From NCBI RefSeq assembly GCF_000265525.1, contig NC_018015.1, forward strand, positions 310,001 to 374,000: a stretch of DNA of 64,000 nt, written 5' to 3'. The first letter of the stretch is position 1. Every line of letters begins with the position of its first letter. Shown piece after piece: positions 27,980-28,323 of the stretch. This DNA is from Thermococcus cleftensis. Lineage in GTDB: Archaea; Methanobacteriota_B; Thermococci; Thermococcales; Thermococcaceae. The translations under genes and the position numbers were made by a program. The notes under the pieces are model-generated. The model searched no databases. It saw only the letters and a list, made by a program, of their open reading frames with translations, and was not told the origin of the DNA.

Positions 27980-28323
27980 GGGCTTTGGCCCTTTCCCTTC
28001 TTCTGGCCTCTTTCTTTCCCCAGCACCTAGCCTTCCAGGTTTCGGGTATAACGACGGTTAGTATAACAGTGGTTATACCAATGGTCATCATACAGAGGCA
28101 AGATCCCATAATTGGCCTCTAGGGACGTTCTCCACTACGAACCTGAAGAAGTAACCGTTCTAGACGGGAGGGCCTCATGAAACCTTCGGGTGGAGGAATT
28201 ACTCACCCCCCGGTTCATTGATGAAACCTCACGTTTTAATTTGTTCGTACCCATAACTGAAGGAAACTTTATAAGGCTGGGGTGCGTACCCTCCTTGATG
28301 TATATGCCCTCACGGTGGAGGAA
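27980..28323. promoter_or_regulatory. region before cas6: repeated GTATAAC motifs and the cas promoter
   Basis: No gene is supported in this 344-base gap. GTATAAC occurs at 28046-28052 and 28061-28067, and GTTATAC at 28072-28078, the last two forming a perfect inverted repeat with a four-base spacer. The 12-mer GTTATACCAATG (28072-28083) is repeated at 34441-34452 within the start of cas4. A plus-strand TATA box TTTATAA lies at 28268-28274, about 55 bases before the cas6 ATG, and is the likely promoter of the cas operon. Confidence 0.55.

Follow-up and report, generated by a model that had tools for sequence, protein, structure and literature searches.

Matching GTATAAC clusters in the cas locus of Thermococcus cleftensis as probable remnants of two distinct ATPase gene starts

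The two GTATAAC-rich stretches found before cas6 and at the 5' end of cas4 in Thermococcus cleftensis very probably derive from two different ATPase genes of an ancestral cas locus, here called ATPase1 and ATPase2, and are what is left of their start regions. In the history that we propose, copy 1 would be the start of an ATPase1 gene that stood between an acetyl-CoA-synthetase-type (acs-type) gene and cas6 and lost its interior, both ends being left, and copy 2 would be DNA from upstream of an ATPase2 gene that was turned into coding sequence for the N-terminal tail of Cas4.

The window, meaning the whole 64,000-nucleotide stretch of contig NC_018015.1 that was analyzed, holds a type I-B-like cas locus in which PADLOC recognized Cas6, Cas8b/Cst1, Cas7b, Cas5b, Cas3b and Cas4, with 39 CRISPR repeats at 37447-40029. 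Copy 1 lies between the end (27979) of a gene for what we take to be an acetyl-CoA-synthetase-type subunit and cas6, about 200 bp 5' of the TATA-like box of cas6 itself. This box (28267-28276, forward strand) was read from the sequence, and a CTTATAAGG-type box is kept in relatives, as judged by eye; cas6 starts at GTG 28282 or, more likely, at ATG 28324. Copy 2 falls within the reading frame of cas4, where it belongs to an N-terminal tail that relatives lack or have in variable form, and is followed by the conserved body of cas4 (34470-34967, forward strand; TATCCCCTCGA), which matches Pfam Cas_Cas4 and from whose first base the cas4 of the related genome G004 is alignable again (46/51 identical). 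Neither 28036-28122 nor 34398-34460 contained a tRNA or an Rfam RNA. The idea that the acs-cas6 intergenic region has a plasmid relative was also rejected, there being no match.

As the first-pass annotation of this DNA had reported, the 12-base sequence GTTATACCAATG occurs at 28072-28083 and again at 34441-34452, among copies of GTATAAC at 28046, 28061 and 34454 and of GTTATAC at 28072 and 34441, and ATAACAGT is shared by 28063-28070 and 34417-34424. The two copies of GTTATACCAATG, both in the cas locus, are the only ones in the 1.95-Mb genome, and the sequence is present in 3 of 61 genomes of the genus, that of T. cleftensis included. The genome has 79 copies of GTATAAC, 40 of them forward and 39 reverse, where the backwards control gave 30 and 25. 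Neighbouring pairs at most 50 bp apart number three genome-wide, all of them within the copy 1 and copy 2 clusters, and as many close pairs arose in 12 of 20,000 random placements.

A repeat search at copy 1 revealed a structure richer than the annotation had described, a 48-bp imperfect palindrome (28046-28093) with three palindromic units spaced by 15 bp at 28049-28060 (TAACGACGGTTA), 28064-28075 (TAACAGTGGTTA) and 28079-28090 (CAATGGTCATCA), laid out as in intact ATPase1 genes; at copy 2 (34300-34560) the search reported no repeat. DNA alignment delimits an ATPase1 5'-end relic at 28036-28122 on the forward strand, comprising the promoter/start array, an ATG at 28081, 13 codons (MVIIQRQDPIIGL) and a stop at 28120-28122. 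Copy 1 matches five intact ATPase1 starts at the same place in relatives, across the array, ATG and opening codons (for example 52/65 with G034 and 51/65 with G072), and in each case none of 500 shuffles was as good. A 3'-end relic at 28121-28180 on the same strand (DVLHYEPEEVTVLDGRAS, stop at 28178-28180) was recognized by DNA alignment to intact C-termini: with 28110-28200 set against four of these, 0, 1, 0 and 0 of 1000 shuffles were as good, and over the last codons together with the cas6 promoter the counts were 0 of 500 for four genes and 10 of 500 for a fifth (G085). At the protein level this relic is weak, and tblastn at E up to 1 did not find it. Between these relics about 1.1 kb of the ATPase1 interior has been lost. 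Because intact ATPase1 genes align with this DNA at their start as well as at their end, copy 1 is a gutted gene, its homology and relic structure being established by these alignments. The T. cleftensis genome has no close ATPase1, the best match (E 2.1e-8) covering residues 197-368 only.

Copy 2 matches other DNA. Over 34398-34459 on the forward strand it is 54/62 identical, without gaps, to the sequence upstream of ATPase2 in G004, where ATPase2 is placed between cas3 and cas4 and where the counterpart of GTTATACCAATG is ATTACACCAAAA. The portion 3' of the cas3 stop (34412-34475) scored 64 against G004, whereas the best of 1000 shuffles reached 31. Alignments of copy 2 to L019, L020, L023 and L029 were short and weak. 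Codons of ATPase2 were not seen at copy 2, and the alignment with G004 resumes only at the cas4 body, at 34470. When ATPase2 starts were tested for palindromes or 13-21-bp repeats, with the test anchored on the match start and not on a start codon called by script, 2 of 12 passed, against 5 of 69 controls. Judged from sequence, the case for homology is thus strong, and that for reading copy 2 and the DNA upstream of ATPase2 as an operator is weak.

ATPase2 lies directly 5' of cas4 in 12 of the 61 genus genomes, and every one of the 12 close copies (at least 51% identity) directly adjoins cas4. This strict placing suggests that ATPase2 is connected with the adaptation genes and raises the question of a role in spacer acquisition. 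The carriers (L241-L252) are G004, G011, G016, G022, G023, G024, G027, G029, G030, G033, G034 and G084. T. cleftensis itself lacks a close ATPase2, with a best match of about 27% identity. With neither ATPase1 nor ATPase2 closely represented in their own genome, the arrays stand without a close cognate protein and are therefore most likely inert, so that in T. cleftensis they most likely do nothing now, except that copy 2 serves as Cas4 coding sequence.

It is possible, though we consider it rather unlikely, that the AACTGTAAC-type repeats at the 5' end of cas4 belong to an old variable N-terminal tail of Cas4 and that ATPase2 was inserted alongside later. Asn/Cys/Tyr-rich in-frame tails, encoded by AACTGTAAC/AATTACAGT-type repeats and having residues such as NYxxNCNxxN, are present in six cas4 genes without ATPase2 (L009, L011, L015, L016, L021 and L033), one of which, L015, aligns with copy 2 at 44/65 without gaps. 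The same DNA is, however, ATPase2 upstream sequence in G004, and L014, L031 and L032 resemble, by eye, a gutted ATPase2 at the cas4 place. An old Cas4 tail would leave the interpretation of copy 1 unchanged.

The ATPase1 array was followed through 94 genomes of the family with a palindrome search that allowed up to 3 mismatches, and 31 genomes matched. With T. cleftensis excluded, 30 stretches were fetched and context was obtained for 26; L103, L105, L109 and L110 fell outside this set through a poor fit to the stricter pattern, and L105 (from G003) has an intact ATPase1. Among the 26 loci, the array lay at acs-cas6 in 11, beside TYW2-type genes, which are tRNA-modification genes, in 12, beside helicase-like genes in 2 and elsewhere in 1, the TYW2 label resting on Pfam for one example (L085) and on sequence likeness for the others. 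In 12 of the 26 the motif contains the start of a gene about 411 codons long (one ended by the contig edge). In relatives, the place of intact ATPase1 is between the acs-type gene and cas6, and where the gene is intact the array is about 1.3 kb from cas6.

Loss of ATPase1 has left varied traces. The C-terminus is kept in 4 of 14 loci without intact ATPase1 (G015, G029, G036 and G008); G004 holds remnants of both ends, and G026 of the C-terminus only. Gutted copies at two genomic places (acs-cas6 in T. cleftensis, G004, G015, G029 and G026, and a second place in L083/L089) retain some 20-30 of the 411 codons at the 3' end and, in most cases, the start; no half-length relic of ATPase1 was found at either place. 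One old deletion could explain the gutted copies at acs-cas6, though the repeated endpoint is curious. Array remnants with no recognized ATPase1 C-terminus occur in G001, G013, G014, G031 and G084; in such cases the array could be older than the gene, or could have been retained for some reason. At acs-cas6 the array is decayed in G024, and there is none in G011, G018, G063, G083 and G026; in this comparison 10 of 20 stretches, having no cas6 match, were unused, and G033, among the other ten, has no acs-type gene. An array that can be dispensed with is not expected to be a functional cas operator.

In a tree of 18 sequences the acs-cas6 copies and the TYW2 copies form one group each, as expected for mostly in-place inheritance with several losses, and G085, from another genus, also has ATPase1 at acs-cas6, which indicates that residence there is probably old. 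These results bear on a second alternative, in which an ATPase-encoded mobile element has the arrays as its targets or ends and the gutted copies are its non-autonomous derivatives or failed excisions. The occurrence of the same array and gene at several genomic places, the fact that gutted copies at two places retain the start together with some 20-30 codons from the end of the 411, and the conservation of a PD-(D/E)XK-like motif would all suit such an element; but copies from the same place group together in the tree, the acs-cas6 copy is common to another genus, as long residence would predict, and the 12 close ATPase2 copies all share a single place, so that we regard mobility as distinctly improbable. 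The first-pass annotation had offered traces of a mobile or recombination element as its second guess, and a part of this survives, in that both copies appear to be relics of ATPase 5' regions, while the clustering of same-site copies in the tree argues against the mobility.

If the two copies are relics of different genes, as we prefer, their exact 12-base identity most likely came about by chance, both stretches being rich in A+T. Of 3000 dinucleotide shuffles of the copy 1 and copy 2 stretches, 5 gave a shared word of 12 bases or more, and the match is therefore unlikely for a fixed pair; this pair was selected by scanning the 64-kb window, in which, by our estimate, chance alone would produce many 12-base repeats. 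The start regions of intact ATPase1 and ATPase2 have longest shared words of only 6-8 bases (121 comparisons), and it is for this reason that we read the identity as chance.

The same comparisons make it barely credible that the effector (cas6) and adaptation (cas4) modules are preceded by a single motif to which a cas-specific regulator binds, as the annotation had guessed: although both genomic 12-mers and the only two tight GTATAAC clusters are in the cas locus, and 11 of the 26 arrays lie between the acs-type gene and cas6, the two places in relatives have no motif in common, 12 of the 26 arrays adjoin TYW2-type genes away from cas, the acs-cas6 regions named above have a decayed array or none, and where ATPase1 is intact the array is about 1.3 kb away from cas6. 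The kind of site that the annotation had in mind is that of Csa3a-type regulators, which reportedly act on adaptation genes; the difference here is that, in the relatives examined, cas6 and cas4 are not preceded by a common motif. The pairing of GTATAAC with an inverted GTTATAC, which had been put forward as something to look for in Thermococcales cas loci, does recur, with spacers of 3-12 bases, in 14 of the 61 genomes of the genus, the spacer being 4 bases long in 10 of these, but array places account for only 6 of the 14 (G000, which is T. cleftensis, G008, G035, G036, G079 and G084). The matches in G062, G063, G067 and G068 come from a coding sequence common to the four, and those in G003, G012, G021 and G026 are elsewhere than the array places. 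These findings stop a false lead, that of a Thermococcales cas operator.

The start-region palindromes found over the ATPase1 family are a more interesting observation than the matching copies. In intact ATPase1 genes, the three 15-bp units stretch from the TATA-like region as far as the opening codons, and the GGTGG of the middle unit is 8 bases 5' of the ATG in the third unit, positioned as a ribosome-binding site would be. Among 75 archaeal relatives of ATPase1, ranging from Thermoproteota to Micrarchaeota, 72% have palindromes over the start, compared with 5% of 150 controls and 12% of shuffles, and 53% have 13-16-bp repeats there, compared with 2.7% of controls (75 of 80 fetched loci were used, the others not having been entered, having short upstream DNA or containing N; 150 of 300 control starts were sampled). 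By eye, the letters of the arrays differ between ATPase1 subfamilies. On balance, we favour the interpretation that the ATPase1 array is an autoregulatory operator, to which the winged-helix protein of the same gene would bind. AbiE toxin-antitoxin systems reportedly have an autoregulatory operator with repeated inverted repeats at the regulator's own promoter. The ATPase1 repeats resemble AbiE operators in being repeated inverted repeats at the promoter of their own gene and differ in covering the start codon and first codons, in belonging to a single gene with no partner, and in that the operator is putative.

These genes represent a large, nearly unannotated archaeal ATPase family with start codons inside subfamily-specific palindromic arrays, and if the arrays are autoregulatory operators, each gene with its array would offer a protein-DNA pair ready for study in a family whose function is unknown. 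Archaeal ATPase start arrays were not described in the open PMC literature that we searched, an absence limited to those searches, and the excerpted texts of PMC1913061, PMC4158269, PMC5495485 and PMC6393860 do not treat arrays of the ATPase1 family.

ATPase1 is a protein of about 411 amino acids with predicted P-loop AAA+, winged-helix and C-terminal PD-(D/E)XK-like domains. The predicted structure of one ATPase1 (mean pLDDT 92.9) ranks nearest to Orc1/Cdc6 and RuvB, with modest TM-scores; L216 and L238 (2 of 39 proteins, with internal stops) and, earlier, L165 were excluded from the structure alignment. HTH_5 matches the middle of the protein, and near the C-terminal end is a conserved E-x-D ... 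E-x-K-W-K pattern, which we take to be typical of PD-(D/E)XK nucleases. The closest described families are PF01637 (ATPase_2) and the AAA_14/DUF234-type ATPases, with ATPase1 giving weak matches to AAA_14, HTH_5 and DUF234 in the expected order; the DUF234 (PF03008) match is below cut-off (14.2 vs 22.5 bits), and most ATPase1 members miss the AAA_14 cut-off. PF01637 has no match to ATPase1, whereas ATPase2 (L020) is above its cut-off (56.4 vs 33.2 bits). No NCBIfam model names ATPase1, and start-codon palindromes are absent from the family descriptions that were found.

A likeness by description exists to SiRe_2373 of Sulfolobales, which is described as an AAA ATPase/PD-DExK fusion with a wHTH partner, SiRe_2374, and for which possible antiviral immunity has been proposed (PMC11065993). 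Both systems combine an archaeal AAA ATPase, PD-DExK and winged-helix DNA binding, but according to that text the winged helix of the Sulfolobales system is a separate gene, whereas that of ATPase1 is predicted to be internal (PMC11065993). As a long shot, AAA+/winged-helix/nuclease-like ATPases might constitute a widespread archaeal class with start-codon palindromes, two of which would have stood, in Thermococcus, at the entry points to the effector module and the adaptation module of one CRISPR locus as accessory defence or selfish genes, their loss leaving scars of array plus tail since the protein acts on its own array.

Several minor observations concern related proteins. PF01637 paralogues other than ATPase2 (L253-L270) passed the palindrome test in 14 of 18 cases, again with the test anchored on the match start; an example of their start palindromes is CTTACCCCGGGGTAAG-TAA-CTTACGGTGGGGTAAG before a TTG, and one such paralogue is present in T. 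cleftensis (L269, G000:C1:48137-48988). Within the window, 35920-36675 encodes a second Cas4-like PD-(D/E)XK protein 3' of cas1, for which the best PADLOC model is PD_DExK (PDLC01132) and matches to Cas4 are weak. An ATPase1 relative from another phylum, Candidatus Micrarchaeota (L217), has GTATAATGGTGGTTATAC before its ATG, nearly the same as the Thermococcus array.
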